A stretch of DNA of 36,445 nucleotides from Deltaproteobacteria bacterium (GTDB lineage Bacteria; Desulfobacterota; Desulfobulbia; Desulfobulbales; SURF-16). Under the pieces are notes generated by a model. It saw only the letters and a program-made list of their open reading frames with translations. It did no database searches and was not told the DNA's origin. Below are positions 2,664 to 9,439 of the stretch, piece by piece. Location: contig JACRCD010000017.1 in assembly GCA_016219175.1 (NCBI GenBank), positions 1 through 36,445 on the forward strand, written 5' to 3'. Numbering within the stretch: position 1 is the stretch's first letter; each line of letters begins with the position of its first letter. Made by a program: the position numbers and the translations under genes.

Positions 2664-4043
2664 TCAAGAATATCGTGCGCTAATCCTTTCCCGGTCCAGC
2701 AGCGAGAGCGTTTTCGGAGCCAAGGCCACATCATAGAGCCGGGCACTGTTCAGCCCGAAAATGGCGCTCTTCACCAAACCGTCCGCCTTGCCAAGCGGCG
2801 GCAAGGCGAATTTTTCCTGCAAATCGGCCGGGATCTCGATGCGCCGGAAGGCCTCTATCTGCCACTGGGGTGAGCCGTACCATACGGAATCAGTGCCCCA
2901 CAGAACCTTGTCAACGCCTAATCCCTTGATCAGGGTGGAGAGCAGTACGGCGCAGTGACGCGGATAGGTGACCGCTGACGAGGCAAAAGCCGTCCCCAGT
3001 TCGGCATAGACATTGTCTACCTTAAATTTTGCCGGGATGGCGGCCAGCTCACTCACCCAGGGGATATAGCCGTTTGCCTCGAAGGAACTGAGGTATTCCG
3101 GAGCGAAATCCTGCAACGGCCGCAGGGCGGCATGATAGATTATGAAATTGAGCCGCGGCCAATCCCGGGCCGCCTTGCCGACATCATCCACCGTGGCGTA
3201 TCTCCAGAGATCGGGAAACGAAGTCTGATAATCATCGGGCAGGAGACCCTTATGGATGCAGACATTGCGAATCCCGGCCTTGACCATTTTTTCGTAGGCC
3301 GGGTAGACCAGTTGTTCGTCATCAAGACGCCAGGGATAGCGTGACGGACCCAGCGGATCGCCAATGGTATACCCTTTCCAGCTATCAGGATGCAGGGTCT
3401 CGATGGCCCTGTCGATTTCCTCAAGCCAGCCGGGCTGTCCGGGCGTGAAAATGGCGTGGGCCAGTAGCCTGCGGCTGCCGGCGATACCGTTGATGACTGA
3501 TCTGGTTTTCGCTATTTCATCGTTGGTCAGAAACCATTTTTGCGGGTCATCGGAGGGGGCGCCGGAGAGCAGACCGATTTTTGTCTGACTCTGCAGGAAA
3601 ACCTCGTCGATGAAATTGTCGAATTTTATCTTTTCAAGATCACTATTCTCCGCGCCCAAATCCTTGTTCCAGTTACGGGCATAGCGCCGCAGACCGGCCA
3701 ACCCCTGCCAAGCGTACTGGTCTCTGACGTAATGCAGCTGCACATCAAAAATAAACTGCTGGTCGAGCGACTTTCTGATTGCCTCGGCCGCTTCGGGTTC
3801 AGAGGCTTCCGCCGGCAGGACATCGAATATCCCGCCATACACCGAATTCATGGCCAGGAAAGCGGCAGCCATGCCGCAAGTGCTGCCGAGAAACCGCCGT
3901 CTGCTCCAGCCAAGTTTCCGGCCGAAGCGGACGGCAAGGGACTCTAGCGTCTTTTCCGTCAGTTTCTGCTGATGCGTTTGCGCGAGCGGCCGGAATTCAC
4001 CATTGGAAAGAACCCTGGTGGGAAGAGGATAACGTCTCTGCAT
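2664..4043 (-). CDS. Amidohydrolase family protein with twin-arginine signal
   Basis: The protein has 459 residues from the ATG at 4043, chosen because AGAGGAGATATCC precedes it; an upstream in-frame ATG at 4097 has no such site. Residues 47-53 read SRRRFLG, a twin-arginine export motif, followed by a hydrophobic stretch (GMAAAFLAMNSV) and AEA as a possible cleavage site near 80, so export to the periplasm is likely. The N-terminal region before the motif is unusually long (46 residues). The rest fits amidohydrolase family 2: FDVQLHYV where the first metal ligands are expected (only one His of the usual HxH), VCIHKGL, IIYHAALRPL and VLWGTDSVWYGSP with the conserved Asp near the end. The substrate is unknown. 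It stands alone between repeat-rich intergenic regions. Confidence 0.8.
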   Translation of the reverse strand: MQRRYPLPTRVLSNGEFRPLAQTHQQKLTEKTLESLAVRFGRKLGWSRRRFLGSTCGMAAAFLAMNSVYGGIFDVLPAEASEPEAAEAIRKSLDQQFIFDVQLHYVRDQYAWQGLAGLRRYARNWNKDLGAENSDLEKIKFDNFIDEVFLQSQTKIGLLSGAPSDDPQKWFLTNDEIAKTRSVINGIAGSRRLLAHAIFTPGQPGWLEEIDRAIETLHPDSWKGYTIGDPLGPSRYPWRLDDEQLVYPAYEKMVKAGIRNVCIHKGLLPDDYQTSFPDLWRYATVDDVGKAARDWPRLNFIIYHAALRPLQDFAPEYLSSFEANGYIPWVSELAAIPAKFKVDNVYAELGTAFASSAVTYPRHCAVLLSTLIKGLGVDKVLWGTDSVWYGSPQWQIEAFRRIEIPADLQEKFALPPLGKADGLVKSAIFGLNSARLYDVALAPKTLSLLDRERISARYS

Positions 4044-4522
4044 GGATATCTCCTCTGATGGAAGTCTTGAATAATTGGAATTTTCGCCCGAGAACAAAAA
4101 ACCTGCTGTCCGGGAAATATATTCAATTATGGTGCCAGCTTTTTTGAAGTGCGGGATGACTGAAATAATTCGTAATATGCTTGGTAATTCCTAGGACCGG
4201 GGTCAATCTGCCTGGGAAGAATGAGCCTGATCATCTCTCCATGAATTTGCGGTCCGGGCAACATACCATAAGGCAAAATCCTGGAATCCTGCCCATCAGG
4301 AATACCGTCCGTCCTTACAGGACTTCAGAATGCGGCTTCAATCGCGTGCGCAACAAATAGCCGTTGCGCACCGGCCACCAGGATACAGGGGGAGGCAGGC
4401 TTTATCGCCCGCCAATCCGCGAGTGCAAACGATGAAACCCCGGATGAAACTTGACACGATTCTATCCTGCCAAGCGATTGACCAAGTGGTATTGAAATTG
4501 CTTTTTATATGCTCACTCGGGT
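4044..4522. other. Intergenic region with one perfect stem-loop
   Basis: I see no credible gene in these 479 bases. The only clear structure is a perfect 9-bp inverted repeat, GTGCGCAAC (4346-4354) and GTTGCGCAC (4363-4371), with an 8-base loop. No T tract follows on either strand, so it is not a standard terminator. Confidence 0.55.
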
Positions 4523-4655
4523 GAGGCTTTTGCAAAATGAACTTGTGTGTCATTCCGAACGCAGTGAGGAATCTGTAATTGCCGTGATTTTATTAGATTT
4601 CTCCCTTCGGTCGAAATGACAGGAACCATTCCTTTGCTTATTTTGCAAGAGCCTC
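4523..4655 (+). mobile_element. Family 1 inverted-repeat element, copy 2
   Basis: A 133-bp non-coding element with terminal inverted repeats, GAGGCTTTTGCAAAAT at the left and ATTTTGCAAGAGCCTC at the right. The interior also carries opposed TGTCATTCCGAAC and TCGAAATGACA blocks. The direct repeat CTCGGGT lies at 4516-4522 and 4653-4659, consistent with a target duplication of about seven bases overlapping the right end. It shares nearly its whole length with 10242-10374. Confidence 0.85.
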
Positions 4656-4712
4656 GGGTGGCCGGCATAACCGGAACAGGCAGCCCAGGCCCGGAATCAA
4701 TTTCTTCTTGCC

Positions 4713-4755
4713 CTTGACTTAAGTCAAGGTTCGGACTCGCACGTTACCCTATAAT
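4713..4755 (+). promoter_or_regulatory. Crp/Fnr-type activator site plus -10 box for the octaheme cytochrome
   Basis: A perfect 16-base palindrome, CTTGACTTAAGTCAAG (4713-4728), has the half-sites TTGAC and GTCAA spaced by four bases, the architecture read by Crp/Fnr-superfamily regulators. A consensus TATAAT lies at 4750-4755. With a start point about seven bases after the -10 box (near 4762), the palindrome centre (4720.5) falls at about -41.5, the classic class II activator position. There is no good -35 box, as expected for an activated promoter. The regulator is not encoded in the window. Fnr, or N-oxide responsive members such as HcpR or Dnr, are candidates by site shape only. Confidence 0.7.
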
Positions 4756-4843
4756 AATCGTGATGGATCATTTTTTTCAGCCGTGGACCTGAAAGTACCC
4801 GGTCCGGAACGGAAAATATTACCCAAAAGCGAGGAGATGAAAG

Positions 4844-6067
4844 ATGAAAAGAGAAATGGCTAGGATGGTCGCGATCGGAGTGGCGGGACTGTTACTGGGG
4901 CTGCCGGCCCTAAGCGGGGCCGCGGAGAGCGCCTGCGTCGGCTGCCACAAGGAGATTACCCCCAACATTGTCAAGGACTTCATGTCAGGCGCCATGGGCA
5001 AGTCGGGCATGGACTGCGCGGACTGCCACGGCAAGGCCCACACCGGTAAGGATGATGCGGCCAAGGCCACCATGCCCAACGAAAAGACCTGCCAGAAATG
5101 CCACGAGAAACAGCATGCCCAGTACGCCGACGGCAAGCACGCCCTGGGCTGGATCGCCATGTCCTCCATGCCCACCAACGCCATCCAGCCCCACGCCTAT
5201 ATCCAGGGGCTCAAGGGCTGCGGAGGCTGTCACAAGGTCGGTATCCGGGACGAGGCCGCCAAAGCCGAATCTCGCTACGGCTCACCCTGCGACTCCTGCC
5301 ACACCCGCCACAAGTTCTCCAAGGCCGAGGCTAAAAAGCCCGAGGCCTGCCAGACCTGCCACATGGGATTCGATCATCCGCAATGGGAGATGTGGTCCGG
5401 GTCCAAGCACGGGGTGATCTACCAGACCGAGGGTGATACCGGCCGGGCCCCCACCTGCCAGACCTGTCACATGGAAGAAGGGAATCACCGGGTCATGACC
5501 TCCTGGGGCTTCCTCGCCCTCCGTCTCCCCGAGGATGACGCCGAGTGGATGGGCTATCGCACCACCATCCTCAAGGGTCTGCATGTCCTGGATCCCCAGG
5601 GGAATGCCACCCCCCGCCTCGACTTGGTCAAGGCCGGCAAGATCGCCCGCCTGACCAAGGAGGAGTGGCAGGCCGAACGCGACCGGATGATCCTGGTCTG
5701 CAGCAAATGCCACAGCAGCAAGTACGCCAAAACCAACCTGCAGAACGCCGACGAGATGATCAAGGAGGCCGACAAGCTGATGTCCCAGGCCATCGAGATC
5801 GTGGCCGGGCTCTATGACAAGGGGGTCATCAAGCCGGGTCCCAACAAGGCGGCCTACCCCGACCTGCTCACCTTCTATGACGCCATTACCCCCATCGAGC
5901 AGACCCTCTACGTCATGTTCCTTGAGCACCGGATGCGGGCCTTCCAAGGCGCCTTTCACATGAACCCGGACTATGTCACCTGGTACGGACTGGCCGAGCT
6001 GCAGAAGGACCTGGTCGAGATCAAGCATGAAGCGGCTACCATGCTGAAGGAGGCCGGGAACAAATAG
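4844..6067 (+). CDS. Octaheme c-type cytochrome, hydroxylamine oxidoreductase (HAO) family
   Basis: The 407-residue protein starts with a Sec signal (RMVAIGVAGLLLGLPALSGA) and carries eight CXXCH haem sites at residues 31, 58, 83, 126, 149, 169, 205 and 286, followed by a haem-free helical C-terminus. Eight sites in this spacing, with the last one set apart by about 80 residues, is the pattern of the octaheme HAO-type cytochromes. These act in the periplasm on hydroxylamine, nitrite or related nitrogen compounds, either oxidatively or reductively. Tyrosines 377 and 381 lie in the region where HAO has its haem-crosslinking Tyr, but without an alignment I cannot assign direction. Start: GAGGAG at 4831-4836. 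No NapC-like or small cytochrome partner is adjacent. The gene is single, with a Crp/Fnr-type promoter upstream and a terminator at 6271. Confidence 0.82.
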   Translation: MKREMARMVAIGVAGLLLGLPALSGAAESACVGCHKEITPNIVKDFMSGAMGKSGMDCADCHGKAHTGKDDAAKATMPNEKTCQKCHEKQHAQYADGKHALGWIAMSSMPTNAIQPHAYIQGLKGCGGCHKVGIRDEAAKAESRYGSPCDSCHTRHKFSKAEAKKPEACQTCHMGFDHPQWEMWSGSKHGVIYQTEGDTGRAPTCQTCHMEEGNHRVMTSWGFLALRLPEDDAEWMGYRTTILKGLHVLDPQGNATPRLDLVKAGKIARLTKEEWQAERDRMILVCSKCHSSKYAKTNLQNADEMIKEADKLMSQAIEIVAGLYDKGVIKPGPNKAAYPDLLTFYDAITPIEQTLYVMFLEHRMRAFQGAFHMNPDYVTWYGLAELQKDLVEIKHEAATMLKEAGNK

Positions 6068-6081
6068 GCAGGCGCAAGCCT

Positions 6082-6244
6082 TGATGAACTCGTAAAAAGT
6101 CGGCGACAAAGCCCGGATGGCTAAGTAACAAAATTCGATATACAAGGCGTAGTGTATTTTTGAGAGCGAGGCCATACATGCGGTATGCCGAACGAACAAA
6201 AATGCGCTGCAACGCAGTAGATCGAATTTTTTACGACGCCATCA
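6082..6244 (+). mobile_element. Family 2 MITE-like element, copy A
   Basis: This 163-bp element has terminal inverted repeats TGATGAACTCGTAAAAA (left) and TTTTTACGACGCCATCA (right) and is flanked by a perfect 5-bp direct repeat AGCCT (6077-6081 and 6245-6249). It contains no transposase. It lies between the cytochrome stop codon and the terminator hairpin, so it would be in the 3' untranslated part of that mRNA. A shorter relative in the opposite orientation lies at 33504-33616. Confidence 0.88.
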
Positions 6245-6270
6245 AGCCTTACTGATTGACCAAAACCAGG

Positions 6271-6321
6271 GCGGGCAAGTGATATCGTGCGAGACAGCGC
6301 ATCACTTACCCGCTTTTTTTT
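6271..6321 (+). terminator. Rho-independent terminator downstream of the octaheme cytochrome
   Basis: GCGGGCAAGTGAT (6271-6283) pairs with ATCACTTACCCGC (6301-6313) with one mismatch and is followed by eight T. It also lies just beyond the 3' end of the peptidase gene on the other strand, where only a weaker T run follows. Confidence 0.9.
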
Positions 6322-6333
6322 GGGTTTACGTTA

Positions 6334-7239
6334 TTAAAGGCCAAACTGCTTTGTTTCGACCCACTCCATCTTTAAGAGGGACCAGAAATCCATGGCCAGT
6401 CTACTAAGGACATAATCGTACGGCAGCCAGCCGTAGCCGTTGTCTCCCCAGCTTGTTCCCCATGAATTACGGATCAGCAGCGCCCCTGTCGTCTCCCTGT
6501 TGCATAACGTGTTCTTTACTTTCTTGCCGTCATCGTAGCCCACGGCAACAATGGCATGACCCCATTGGGCTCTCTCCCCCGGGCACGGATAGGGGATGCC
6601 GCCCTTCACGTTTGTGTTATTAAACGAAGGAAATCCCCAGAAGCCGAACATGGAGGGAATCCCGGCGGCAAGGTACTGTTTGACCGTGGCCAGCACATTT
6701 GCAGGCGGCGCGTTCGCCCCCATGGGGTCATGGCAGAAGTAGCGCAGCGCTTCATAATTATCCGCCACCGCGTAAACAAAGGCGGGCGGGTCCTTATCGA
6801 AATCAGCCACATTGTACGACCAGTATTTTTCATCAGGCACGCCACAGAGGCAAAGCGCGCCCATGACATTTCTCAGCCATGCCCCGGTATCACCTGTCAC
6901 GTTCATCAAATTGCGGGTGGTCTTGTAAAGAAAGAGACGGGAGCCGTCTATATGTTTTCCGTGCGCCCTTCGCTCGAAATATTCCACGATCCCCACCCCG
7001 GCATGGGCCGAGCACGAACCAAGATTCAACTGATTTTCCACCGGGGAACACCACTGCCTGAGATCAACCGTTGCCGGCACGGATAATGTCGCGCCCGTTA
7101 AGCCAAGCCCGGTTGCCACCTCCCTGATATCCTGATGCTCCACGGAATAGTCCCGCAAGTCGGGCATGGGCGGCAACCAACCCGTGCCAACCGTTTCCTT
7201 TGTTTCGAGAAGTTCGACCTTGCTGTATAGATTACACAT
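6334..7239 (-). CDS. Papain-like cysteine peptidase (family C1)
   Basis: The 301-residue protein carries the papain catalytic set: Gln70 and Cys76 in NQLNLGSCSAHA, His228 in QWGHAIVAVGYDDG and Asn258 in LLIRNSWGTSWGDNGYGW. The region around 53-63 (SVPATVDLRQWCSPV) matches the mature N-terminus of C1 peptidases. There is no signal peptide, so it appears cytoplasmic, and the short N-terminal part (about 50 residues) is shorter than a normal inhibitory propeptide. A strong AGGAGGAAAG site precedes the ATG at 7239. It lies 154 bases downstream of the GH13 gene on the same strand and may be cotranscribed with it. Papain-like enzymes are uncommon next to glycosidases; the target is unknown. Confidence 0.9.
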   Translation of the reverse strand: MCNLYSKVELLETKETVGTGWLPPMPDLRDYSVEHQDIREVATGLGLTGATLSVPATVDLRQWCSPVENQLNLGSCSAHAGVGIVEYFERRAHGKHIDGSRLFLYKTTRNLMNVTGDTGAWLRNVMGALCLCGVPDEKYWSYNVADFDKDPPAFVYAVADNYEALRYFCHDPMGANAPPANVLATVKQYLAAGIPSMFGFWGFPSFNNTNVKGGIPYPCPGERAQWGHAIVAVGYDDGKKVKNTLCNRETTGALLIRNSWGTSWGDNGYGWLPYDYVLSRLAMDFWSLLKMEWVETKQFGL

Positions 7240-7393: not shown

Positions 7394-9439
7394 TTACTCC
7401 AGCACATACACCTTGGCCTCCCATGGAAAAACGGGCTCGCGGCCCACCCACTCACGGGGCACAACCCTGTCCTGGGTTACTTCCCGCCATACCCCGCCAA
7501 ACGGCGTGTCCGGCCAGTTCGGCACCACATATTCGGCCTGTCCGCTCCAGGGATCCGGGGTACAGTAATCGGAAAAGTTGGCCACCACCACCAGGGTCTG
7601 CTCGCTGAAATCCCCGCCCCTTTGCCAGACCGCGACTTTCCTGTCTCCGCTGCAATCCATGTGGATAAATTTCGTATCATTGACCGCCAGGGCGTCACAG
7701 CTGGTCCGCAGCCGGACCAGCCGGCTGACATAATCGAAAATCCGCTTGCGCCACTCATGCCCGCACCGGTCAAAATTGACGGGATCAACCTGCTTAAAGG
7801 GATGCCGCACCACCAGATCATGCTCATCGGCAAATTCCTCGCCCGCAAAGATCATGGGAATGCCCACCGCGGTCAACAGACAGACAAAGGCCAGCTTGAT
7901 GCGCGGTTCCGTATCAAAAACCCGGTTATTGACCAGAAAATTAAAGAGCCGTTCATTGCGATAGCCTTCCACGTCATGGGAGGTGACATAATTGATGGCC
8001 TGGGAGGTGTCATGGAAACCGAGCAAGCGGCAGTCAATCAGGCGGCGGATCATGGCGCCAAAATCAGGTGATTTATCATCGCTTTCGCCCAACAGGGCGC
8101 AGCGCACCATTCTCTTGAAATTCTCATTCCACAAACCGTCAAGACGCCCCTGCGCGACGAGTTCGGTCGGCACCGCCAGCTCCTCTCCCACCACCAGGAA
8201 CCGGGAGTCAACCTCATGGAGGCTCAGGTCCGCGCCTTGCCAGCGTTCCCGCCAGCTCCGCCGCGAAAAGTGCGAAAAATCACGGATGAAATCCCAGCTG
8301 GCGATATTCTCCACACTGTCGATGCGGATGCCGTCGATATGAAAGTCATTAATCCAGCGGGCAATGTGGGTCAGCATCAGCTGCCGGGCCGGCGAGAGAG
8401 GTGATCGCGCCCCGGACACCGGGTCGTAGCTTTCCATGAACCTGTTATAGCGGAAAAGGGCGCCGCCGAAGGCCTGGCGTTTTCTGTGCTGATCGTACTC
8501 CTCCGGATCATTAACGTCGGCCTGCACATGAAAATCATGGAAATTGATGTTTTCATACCCGTAGCGGGTGGCAAAGGCCATGACCACATCGATAAAAAAA
8601 CGCAACCCCTGCTGATGGCAGAGCCGGACGAGTTCGGCCAGGTCCGCGTTGGCGGTTGGGGAAAGATGGCCCTTGGGAAAACCGAGATCATAATCCGGGG
8701 CAAAGTAGTTGCTGGTGGCATAGCCCCACTCGCGATCCACAAAACTGTCGGCCACGGGAAGGAGTTCAAGGCAATTGACACCCAGATCATCAATATGGGA
8801 GAGCCCCTTTTCCAGAACGGCCAGCCCCGAGAAATTAGCGGGCTCGTTTCCCCTGCCCACCAGGGCCGCCACATCCCTGAAGGTGCCGACGCCGATCTGC
8901 ACCTGTGTTTCCAGCTCGTCATACCTGCTCCAGACCGTCGGCAGTTCATAGATGACCAGGCTGTTATTGGCGGGCAGCAGCCTGATGTCCACCTTATCCG
9001 GCCGTTGCCGGAAGGCAGCCTCCCCGTTTGGGTCAACAACCACCAGCTCGTCGTTTTCATAACCGATGACGGCGGCTGGATCCCGGTCATCCGCTCCATG
9101 GGGGGGCTCGACCGGTCCCTGCAGACGCCAGTCCACGCAACAGGCGGCGGGATCGGTAACCAGCATCCTTCCCTTTGCCGCCAGGTAGGGATTCGTATCA
9201 GTGACCTCAAACCAGTAATGATAAACGGAACCGTTCGTTAACCCGCACTGCTTAGCCTCAAACTCCCACAGATCGGGATGATCCGCTGCCGGCTGCATGA
9301 TAAACGAGCCGAGCTGGGCAAAGGAGGGCGGGTTGCCGTGCACCATTTCGCCGATGACCAGCCTGGGCGGCTCATCGCTGCTGCCGGGACGCCAGAGGAT
9401 AAATGATTTTCTTTTACGTTTGATAAGATCGGGCGCCAT
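7394..9439 (-). CDS. Glycoside hydrolase family 13 (alpha-amylase type) protein
   Basis: The protein has 681 residues. The first 100 or so resemble a carbohydrate-binding or N-terminal beta domain of branching/debranching enzymes. The barrel shows region II GIRIDSVENI with the nucleophile Asp374, region III FLVVGEEL with the acid Glu419, and region IV YVTSHD with His488 and Asp489. Region I reads DVVMAFATRY, where most family members have D-x-x-x-N-H, so the usual Asn-His pair is missing. A C-terminal beta domain follows (about 580-681). There is no signal peptide, so the substrate is probably an internal glucan such as glycogen. AAAGGAGAAAAAATC precedes the ATG at 9439. It lies 32 bases downstream of the DUF3467 gene. 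The exact specificity cannot be read from sequence. Confidence 0.88.
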   Translation of the reverse strand: MAPDLIKRKRKSFILWRPGSSDEPPRLVIGEMVHGNPPSFAQLGSFIMQPAADHPDLWEFEAKQCGLTNGSVYHYWFEVTDTNPYLAAKGRMLVTDPAACCVDWRLQGPVEPPHGADDRDPAAVIGYENDELVVVDPNGEAAFRQRPDKVDIRLLPANNSLVIYELPTVWSRYDELETQVQIGVGTFRDVAALVGRGNEPANFSGLAVLEKGLSHIDDLGVNCLELLPVADSFVDREWGYATSNYFAPDYDLGFPKGHLSPTANADLAELVRLCHQQGLRFFIDVVMAFATRYGYENINFHDFHVQADVNDPEEYDQHRKRQAFGGALFRYNRFMESYDPVSGARSPLSPARQLMLTHIARWINDFHIDGIRIDSVENIASWDFIRDFSHFSRRSWRERWQGADLSLHEVDSRFLVVGEELAVPTELVAQGRLDGLWNENFKRMVRCALLGESDDKSPDFGAMIRRLIDCRLLGFHDTSQAINYVTSHDVEGYRNERLFNFLVNNRVFDTEPRIKLAFVCLLTAVGIPMIFAGEEFADEHDLVVRHPFKQVDPVNFDRCGHEWRKRIFDYVSRLVRLRTSCDALAVNDTKFIHMDCSGDRKVAVWQRGGDFSEQTLVVVANFSDYCTPDPWSGQAEYVVPNWPDTPFGGVWREVTQDRVVPREWVGREPVFPWEAKVYVLE

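Follow-up and report, generated by a model that had tools for sequence, protein, structure and literature searches.

HAO-like octaheme cytochromes are widespread in anaerobes, and their roles outside nitrifiers and anammox bacteria have largely been guessed from homology. In a 36,445-nt stretch of DNA from a Deltaproteobacteria bacterium (hereafter the window), a gene for such a cytochrome stands downstream of a perfect palindrome, which raises the question of what kind of regulator reads this site and to which response the enzyme belongs. The comparative evidence described below makes it very probable that the palindrome is an HcpR-type (DNR-like) Crp/Fnr class II operator and that the octaheme cytochrome is a member of a nitrogen-oxide regulon, with binding, activation, signal, reaction, and location as the predicted parts of this reading.

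The octaheme gene and its promoter

The octaheme gene is flanked by minus-strand genes, an amidohydrolase gene at 2664-4097 and a papain-type protease gene at 6334-7239, and since both neighbors are on the minus strand, it is by layout alone in its transcription unit. An imperfect inverted repeat with 23-nt arms 129 nt apart lies directly 3' of it (6076-6250). The gene product matches the PF13447 profile and contains CXXCH motifs at residues 31, 58, 83, 126, 149, 169, 205, and 286, which confirms its earlier assignment as an octaheme HAO-like cytochrome; eight CXXCH motifs are found in 107 of 110 homologue loci as well. Sequence and profile searches of solved structures retrieved HAO and HDH, the best match being the Kuenenia reducing HAO-like protein 6h5l. 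This protein also ranked first (E 9e-11) in a fold search with a predicted model of middling confidence (pLDDT 73), in which the other matches below 0.001 were HAO-family entries only, plus one hypothetical multiheme protein (4qo5). With 98.6 bits, the window protein falls short of the 900-bit NCBIfam cut-off for hydrazine dehydrogenase, and it gives no match at E up to 0.001 to PF02335 (NrfA/octaheme nitrite reductase, Cytochrom_C552), of which the genome holds strong matches on contigs C93 and C65. A distant HAO-like paralogue (G000:C71:22679-23401, where G000 denotes this genome; open frame of 420 aa, 37% over about 200 aa) has no operator.

Table 1. Features of the octaheme locus, in window coordinates
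Feature	Position	Strand	Basis
HAO-like octaheme cytochrome c, 407 aa	4844..6067	+	PF13447 profile, eight CXXCH, structure matches
Putative HcpR-type operator, perfect 16-bp palindrome CTTGACTTAAGTCAAG	4713..4728	.	Window sequence; four other class II sites in the genome; motif upstream of homologues
Operator core TTGACTTAAGTCAA	4714-4727		Inside CTTGACTTAAGTCAAG
-10 element TATAAT	4750..4755	+	22 nt 3' of operator core; no -35 element; 22-23 nt gap at other regulon promoters
Predicted transcription start	4762	+	Arithmetic: 7 nt past the -10 hexamer; palindrome centre at -41.5
Shine-Dalgarno-like GAGGAG	4831..4836	+	Sequence; upstream of ATG 4844

The cross-link tyrosine found near the C-terminus of the oxidative HAO and HDH is absent from the window protein, in which Thr379 aligns to the corresponding residue of N. 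europaea HAO in an alignment with a one-residue gap. We take this tyrosine, whose place was counted on the alignment, to be the one numbered Tyr467. Among 99 distinct homologues, the position is occupied by Thr in 44, His in 27, Tyr in 19, and Phe and Asn in one each, and it is unreadable in seven. According to excerpts of two studies (PMC12758564, PMC8940962), absence of this tyrosine goes with reductive chemistry, the inferred reductive ancestor had His, and some signs point to a separate His-to-Tyr change within Desulfobacterota. The excerpt of PMC12758564 assigns His to the reductive and Tyr to the oxidative forms, and Thr is not described in the excerpts of either study. As tyrosine loss accompanies reductive chemistry, the Thr form is predicted to be reductive. 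The cytochrome is probably periplasmic.

The initial annotation had pointed to a perfect palindrome with TTGAC/GTCAA half-sites and to a consensus TATAAT that would place it at about -41.5, the class II activator position. The palindrome was confirmed as a 16-mer (Table 1), and the spacing also holds by sequence geometry, with the palindrome centre (4720.5) at -41.5 relative to the predicted start. A promoter scan of 4100-6400 gave no plus-strand sigma-70-type pair using this TATAAT; therefore, no -35-like hexamer fits. The features of a class II promoter (centre near -41.5, -10 present, -35 absent) are seen here by geometry and gap conservation relative to a predicted start. With up to three mismatches allowed, CTTGACTTAAGTCAAG is the sole match in the window, in which dinucleotide shuffles average 0.14 matches. 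One perfect 16-bp palindrome of any sequence was seen in the 36 kb, versus 0.56 expected. By itself, the palindrome is unremarkable in a window of this size, and the case beyond chance is comparative: a chance palindrome was ruled out by the counts in this genome, across the order, and upstream of homologues, each set against backward controls. An Rfam scan of the window at gathering scores gave no match. A dispersed element of approximately 133 bp with inverted ends occupies 4523-4655 of the window and recurs at C74:10241-10376 and on many other contigs of the genome; 40 of 89 candidates were scored, giving 40 copies at 91-100% identity, the window copy included.

Operator sites and a candidate regulator in the same genome

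In the 4.2-Mb genome, TTGACNNNNGTCAA occurs at five places, versus one for the backward pattern. The class II arrangement (TTGAYNNNNRTCAA, 22-23 nt, TANNNT) was found at five places as well, with none in the backward control, and one of these is the octaheme gene of the window. At a second, before hcp (TIGR01703; G000:C9), TTGACATAAGTCAA is separated by 22 nt from TATACT. A third (C93:11638) stands before nrfHA (TIGR03153, PF02335), on which longer antisense ORFs are overlaid, and a fourth (C91:8414) before a cupin-like gene of 105 aa, whose Cupin_2 score of 24.1 bits is below the cut-off of 27.2. The fifth (C22:49859) lies between a DVU0772-family gene (function unknown) and a molybdoenzyme gene; by eye, a 22-nt gap separates it from TAGACT in one direction and from TATGAA in the other. 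Cupin-like and DVU0772-family genes are also seen by eye behind such sites in relatives, and they are candidate new parts of the nitrogen-oxide response. Another site, TTGACAATGGTCAA in a flagellar cluster (C62:18359), lacks a suitably spaced -10 and was taken as chance. A second PF03063 match (C49) was rejected as hcp, as it reads by eye like a CO-dehydrogenase-like protein and has no operator. The search for the palindrome before hcp and nrfA that had been proposed as a check was thus successful in this genome, with the 22-23 nt spacing at both hcp and nrfHA.

The proposed check for Crp/Fnr regulators also yielded a fitting HcpR/DNR-like candidate encoded in this same genome. Two of the 11 proteins that carry a cyclic-nucleotide-type domain read as Crp/Fnr regulators, and only one protein, of 228 aa (G000:C9:11352-12035; hereafter the C9 regulator), is over the HTH_Crp_2 cut-off. 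Its best solved relative is P. aeruginosa DNR (3dkw). O2-sensing FNR holds an Fe-S cluster by four cysteines of the regulator. The C9 regulator has one cysteine, and several relatives' open frames have none; a strict O2-sensing Fe-S Fnr is therefore disfavored. Of the factors first suggested (Fnr, HcpR or Dnr-like), the HcpR/DNR-like type is retained on helix residues and motif, and the strict Fe-S Fnr is dropped. The other Crp/Fnr-like protein is divergent: it has 198 aa and the helix AHETLYR, and its gene lies at G000:C8:24691-24951 (L129).

Of the 30 closest copies of the C9 regulator, 27 share the recognition helix GTIPETLSRI, and two more have GTIPETLSRM. In 12 distant copies, 11 of them readable, the residue before Glu is Pro in nine and Ser in two, the latter reading SSETLSR or TSETLSR. 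With the numbering aligned by eye to CRP, IPETLSR of the C9 regulator places Pro at 180, where HcpR has Ser or Pro, and Glu at 181. According to excerpts of the HcpR papers (PMC545781, PMC1274295), the change from Arg180 to Ser or Pro accompanies the TTGAC motif in Desulfotalea, Desulfuromonas, and Geobacter, and the targets named are hcp, frdX, nrfHA, ndh, nar, and cytochrome c-like genes. The operator core TTGACTTAAGTCAA matches the published HcpR operator wyTTGACnnnnGTCAArw, and the outer CC/GG conform to it at one letter per side. By recognition-helix residues and motif, HcpR is the best fit among Fnr, HcpR, and Dnr. The exact 18-mer of the published D. psychrophila hcp1 site was found in none of 257 genomes.

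The C9 regulator has a match at E below 1e-60 in 126 of the 146 genomes of the order; co-occurrence of site and regulator says little, because so many genomes have a close copy. Three site-bearing genomes, G049, G110, and G116, lack such a copy (best E 3e-25, 5e-21, and 9e-24, respectively), the last two being 81% and 86% complete. Regarding the signal, the excerpted text of PMC12750200 presents P. gingivalis HcpR as responding to NO by way of heme. In D. desulfuricans, HcpR1 binds heme, is proposed to be an NO sensor, and reads a CRP-like site, and hcp is under HcpR2, modelled with Fe-S clusters, rather than under the heme-binding HcpR1 (PMC5701242, in excerpt); the signal for the C9 regulator is accordingly uncertain.

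Conservation of the operator and exchange of the enzyme

Across the order, 146 genomes were scanned with TTGACTTAWGTCAA. They contain 25 sites apart from those of this genome, and the backward pattern has no more than four matches. By eye, with profile checks for some and a closer reading of one, 21 of the 25 adjoin nitrogen-oxide genes or members of the regulon described above. HAO-like genes account for eight, nrfA/nrfHA for four (G104, G116, G128, G011), and NIT-domain nitrate/nitrite receptors for three (G099, G110, G008; the G110 receptor gene is followed by an HAO-like gene). One site is found at hcp in G038, one in G048 at a gene that in this genome comes after hcp, and one each at a NirB-like gene followed by a cupin gene (G013), a cupin gene (G038), a DVU0772-like gene (G011), and a molybdoenzyme gene (G136). 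The other four (G086, G144, G014, G044) have no fitting gene by eye. TANNNT stands at 22-23 nt in either direction at 15 of the 25 sites, whereas 1000 shuffles average 3.0 such sites and reach at most 9. By locus, NIT-domain chemotaxis receptors are seen near the palindrome in relatives at L149 (by profile) and at L152, L153, and L154 (by eye); at L153, the palindrome sits 3' of the receptor gene and 5' of nrfA.

The upstream regions of homologues were taken from 110 loci, which are best matches (30 loci and the best 80 of 456). Eleven loci were removed because 60 aa in a row are identical to those of a locus earlier in the set (one gene retrieved twice, or Geomonas genes that are nearly the same), and so were two with less than 100 bp upstream, which left 97. 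Within 300 bp upstream, TTGAYNNNNRTCAA is present in 30 of these 97, a fraction that is not unbiased because only best matches were taken, and a count that overstates independent events because relatives are not independent; 0.13 were expected, and none was found with the backward pattern or in 97 kb of coding sequence. The site precedes 13 of the 22 homologues at more than 70% identity and 17 of the remaining 75. In the TTGAYNNNNRTCAA promoters, the match to TATAAT peaks at gaps of 22-23 nt, a level reached in none of 2000 shuffles, and the strict TANNNT at 22-23 nt is present in only 8 of the 30. The bearers include Desulfobulbales, Geomonas, Citrifermentans, Thermosulfurimonas, and Acidobacteriota MAGs. 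According to excerpts of PMC5276818, Thermosulfurimonas dismutans ammonifies nitrate without NrfA, and HaoA-like proteins are proposed as one option. Within the genus of the present species, a Tyr-type gene of G003 has no site and that of G004 has a site with one mismatch. The CRP-like TGTGA-N6-TCACA and the HcpR2-like GTAAC-N4-GTTAC each occur in none of the 97 upstream regions. Taken with the hcp and nrfHA sites, the conservation before homologues in several phyla supports the initial reading of a nitrogen-oxide gene under a class II Crp/Fnr-type site.

A different operator, ATGAYNNNNRTCAT, was found upstream of 19 of the 97 homologues, with no overlap with the 30 bearers of TTGAYNNNNRTCAA and with none for the backward pattern; 48 promoters have neither. 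Seventeen of the 19 sites read TATGA..TCATA, TANNNT follows at 22-23 nt in 13 (at exactly 22 in 11), and all 19 bearers come from records titled Nitrospirota (loci between L054 and L111). The full class II arrangement with TATGAY-N4-RTCATA gave 53 matches in 12 Nitrospirota genomes and none backward, the sites at HAO-like genes being there by construction, since the genomes were chosen for that site. First genes were read by eye at 30 of the 53 loci (within L215-L244), and ten were profile-checked. They include HAO-like cytochromes (L220, L226, L232), hcp (L236, PF03063), an NrfA-family cytochrome (L231, PF02335), WrbA (L234), DUF1858 proteins, and CBS and TM_HPP genes, the latter two likewise present on contig C43 of the present genome; no gene was seen at five loci. 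At L228 and L242, a c-type cytochrome gene is followed by one for a haem-copper oxidase family protein (PF00115). For the NorB-type domain, the score exceeds the cut-off by a narrow margin in L242 and by a clear one in L228, and the L228 cytochrome is above the NCBIfam SoxX cut-off (68.1 bits versus 61); this gene pair is possibly an NO reductase. The assignment of norC/norB at L228, L233, L242, and L244 was dropped as evidence after the profile checks. Another phylum thus has a similar gene set under a different operator, the HAO-like gene and hcp included.

An exchange of the octaheme gene in this species is seen on comparison with its genus. Four of the five other genus genomes (G002-G005) have a Tyr-type gene with 50-53% identity to the window protein, and in G001 no close copy of the Tyr or Thr type was matched. 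A quick tree puts the window gene in a Thr-type clade with other families and Geobacteraceae (22 rows, support 99) and the 19 Tyr-type members in a group of their own (support 100). The G005 Tyr-type gene stands behind TTGACTTAAGTCAA, between a GAF-domain gene and CBS-HPP DNA. At the syntenic place of the present genome, on C43, the flanks match at 79-82% and the operator is kept as TTGACTTATGTCAA (G000:C43:29396; L120 about 7397-7514). All that is left of the gene is a stretch resembling residues 331-364 (E 4e-4). The order there is operator, Tyr-type remnant, a copy of the dispersed repeat (by eye), and the CBS and TM_HPP genes. As judged by these comparisons, the species has lost most of the Tyr-type HAO gene of its genus and has a Thr-type enzyme behind an equivalent operator. 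Because of the matching flanks, the kept operator, and the gene remnant at the syntenic place, the C43 palindrome, found in the genome scan with TTGACNNNNGTCAA, is most plausibly a relic. A role for it in expressing the CBS-HPP genes is conceivable, as such genes stand behind similar operators elsewhere. Tyr, Thr, and His variants of the enzyme are all found behind such operators, and regulation is therefore separable from enzyme subtype. We lean, with modest confidence, toward the view that HAO-like octahemes are a core target of NO-type Crp/Fnr regulators across phyla, read through TTGAY-N4-RTCAA in Thermodesulfobacteriota and Acidobacteriota versus TATGAY-N4-RTCATA in Nitrospirota, typically at -41.5, with the operator logic kept and the enzyme type exchanged.

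Proposed mechanism, alternatives, and known systems

In the proposed mechanism, NO, or nitrite through NO, would activate an HcpR-type dimer, the signal probably being NO on a heme of the regulator. The dimer would bind TTGAC-N4-GTCAA centred at -41.5, stand in for the missing -35 element, and recruit RNA polymerase to TATAAT by class II activation. The predicted regulon of this genome comprises the octaheme gene, hcp, nrfHA, the small cupin-like gene, and the DVU0772-family gene/molybdoenzyme pair. The octaheme cytochrome would be made together with Hcp and NrfHA. Its substrate outside the cytoplasm is most likely nitrite, NO or hydroxylamine, which it would reduce, and Hcp would handle what enters the cytoplasm.

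The operator may be genuine but read by another Crp/Fnr protein, either the 198-aa protein on C8 or one absent from the draft assembly. That such a second protein (G000:C8:24691, AHETLYR) exists and that G049 has the site in the absence of a close copy of the C9 regulator speak for this reading. However, the C8 protein has His before Glu, not the Ser or Pro tied to the TTGA half-site in the HcpR papers, whereas the C9 protein carries the published residues and is matched, as noted above, across most genomes of the order; a different reader is thus quite unlikely. Still less probable, to a degree that makes it highly unlikely, is that the site is a repressor operator or a dual site instead of a class II activator site. 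In excerpts of PMC545781, HcpR is predicted to repress some Desulfovibrio genes with sites overlapping the -10 box, and the -10 of the octaheme promoter is a perfect consensus; however, the palindrome here is clear of the -10, the activator position with the 22-23 nt gap recurs in many promoters, and no -35 was found at the octaheme gene.

Another alternative concerns the enzyme, which may be co-regulated with nitrogen-oxide genes but act as an electron shuttle or on another substrate. HAO-like octahemes are diverse, and the Thr at the cross-link position is neither the reductive His nor the oxidative Tyr named in the excerpts of PMC12758564. Against this stand the eight-heme HAO layout, the similarity in profile and fold to HAO, HDH, and the reducing HAO-like complex, and the occurrence of a similar operator before HAO-like genes and hcp in both Desulfobulbales and Nitrospirota, and before nrfA/nrfHA in Desulfobulbales; we consider a role of this kind unlikely.

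Under the preferred reading, a nitrogen-oxide regulon under an HcpR-type class II operator, the switch that HAO-like octahemes share with hcp and nrfHA, and that recurs at hcp in Nitrospirota with another operator sequence, ties these enzymes to the handling of nitrite and NO independently of homology. The enzyme is probably part of a defense against, or a respiration of, nitrite or nitric oxide. If the view of HAO-like octahemes as a core target across phyla is true, the octaheme cytochrome would be a periplasmic NO, nitrite or hydroxylamine reductase partnering Hcp in organisms not usually counted among nitrogen-oxide users.

The operator type and the regulon have been known since 2004-2005, with a cytochrome c among the predicted targets. 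The HcpR regulon described in the excerpts of PMC545781 (Rodionov 2004) and PMC1274295 (Rodionov 2005) shares with the present one the motif, the regulator with Ser/Pro180, the hcp and nrfHA targets, and cytochrome c-like extras. A named HAO-like target, a cross-phylum class II conservation, and cupin-like, DVU0772 or NIT-receptor targets were not found in these excerpts. In Table 10 of PMC545781, as excerpted, such a site stands before one Desulfuromonas gene entered as "Cytochrome c (heme-binding protein)", which may be HAO-like or not; because this target is of unstated type, the octaheme may have been predicted earlier as an HcpR target. A statement linking the HcpR regulon to a hydroxylamine oxidoreductase-like octaheme was not found in the part of the open-licence literature that was searched, and there the HAO-like octaheme as a conserved target, the different operator of Nitrospirota, and the swap under a kept operator are undescribed. 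From their excerpts, PMC11972089 and PMC12142623 are on other octahemes, and the predicted Nitrosomonas FNR regulon excludes hydroxylamine dehydrogenase (PMC8510549).

The regulator side of the system resembles P. aeruginosa DNR (3dkw), whose helix QPETFSRI corresponds to IPETLSRI of the C9 regulator. P. aeruginosa DNR is a denitrification activator in another phylum. On the side of the response, a close parallel in the excerpted literature is the reverse-HURM pathway of Nautilia profundicola (HaoA and Hcp; PMC3701875), which likewise places an HAO-like octaheme and Hcp in one response and whose genes are more expressed on nitrate; unlike there, nrfHA is present here, and the neighbors of the octaheme gene are not cytochrome genes. 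On the enzyme side, the nitrite-reducing HAOr (PMC8940962, PMC12758564, in excerpt) is one comparison. Kuenenia Kustc0458 (6h5l) is the best sequence and fold match and likewise lacks the cross-link Tyr, with Trp in its place, whereas the window protein is about 100 residues shorter, has Thr at this key position, and shows 26% identity to it in the fold alignment.
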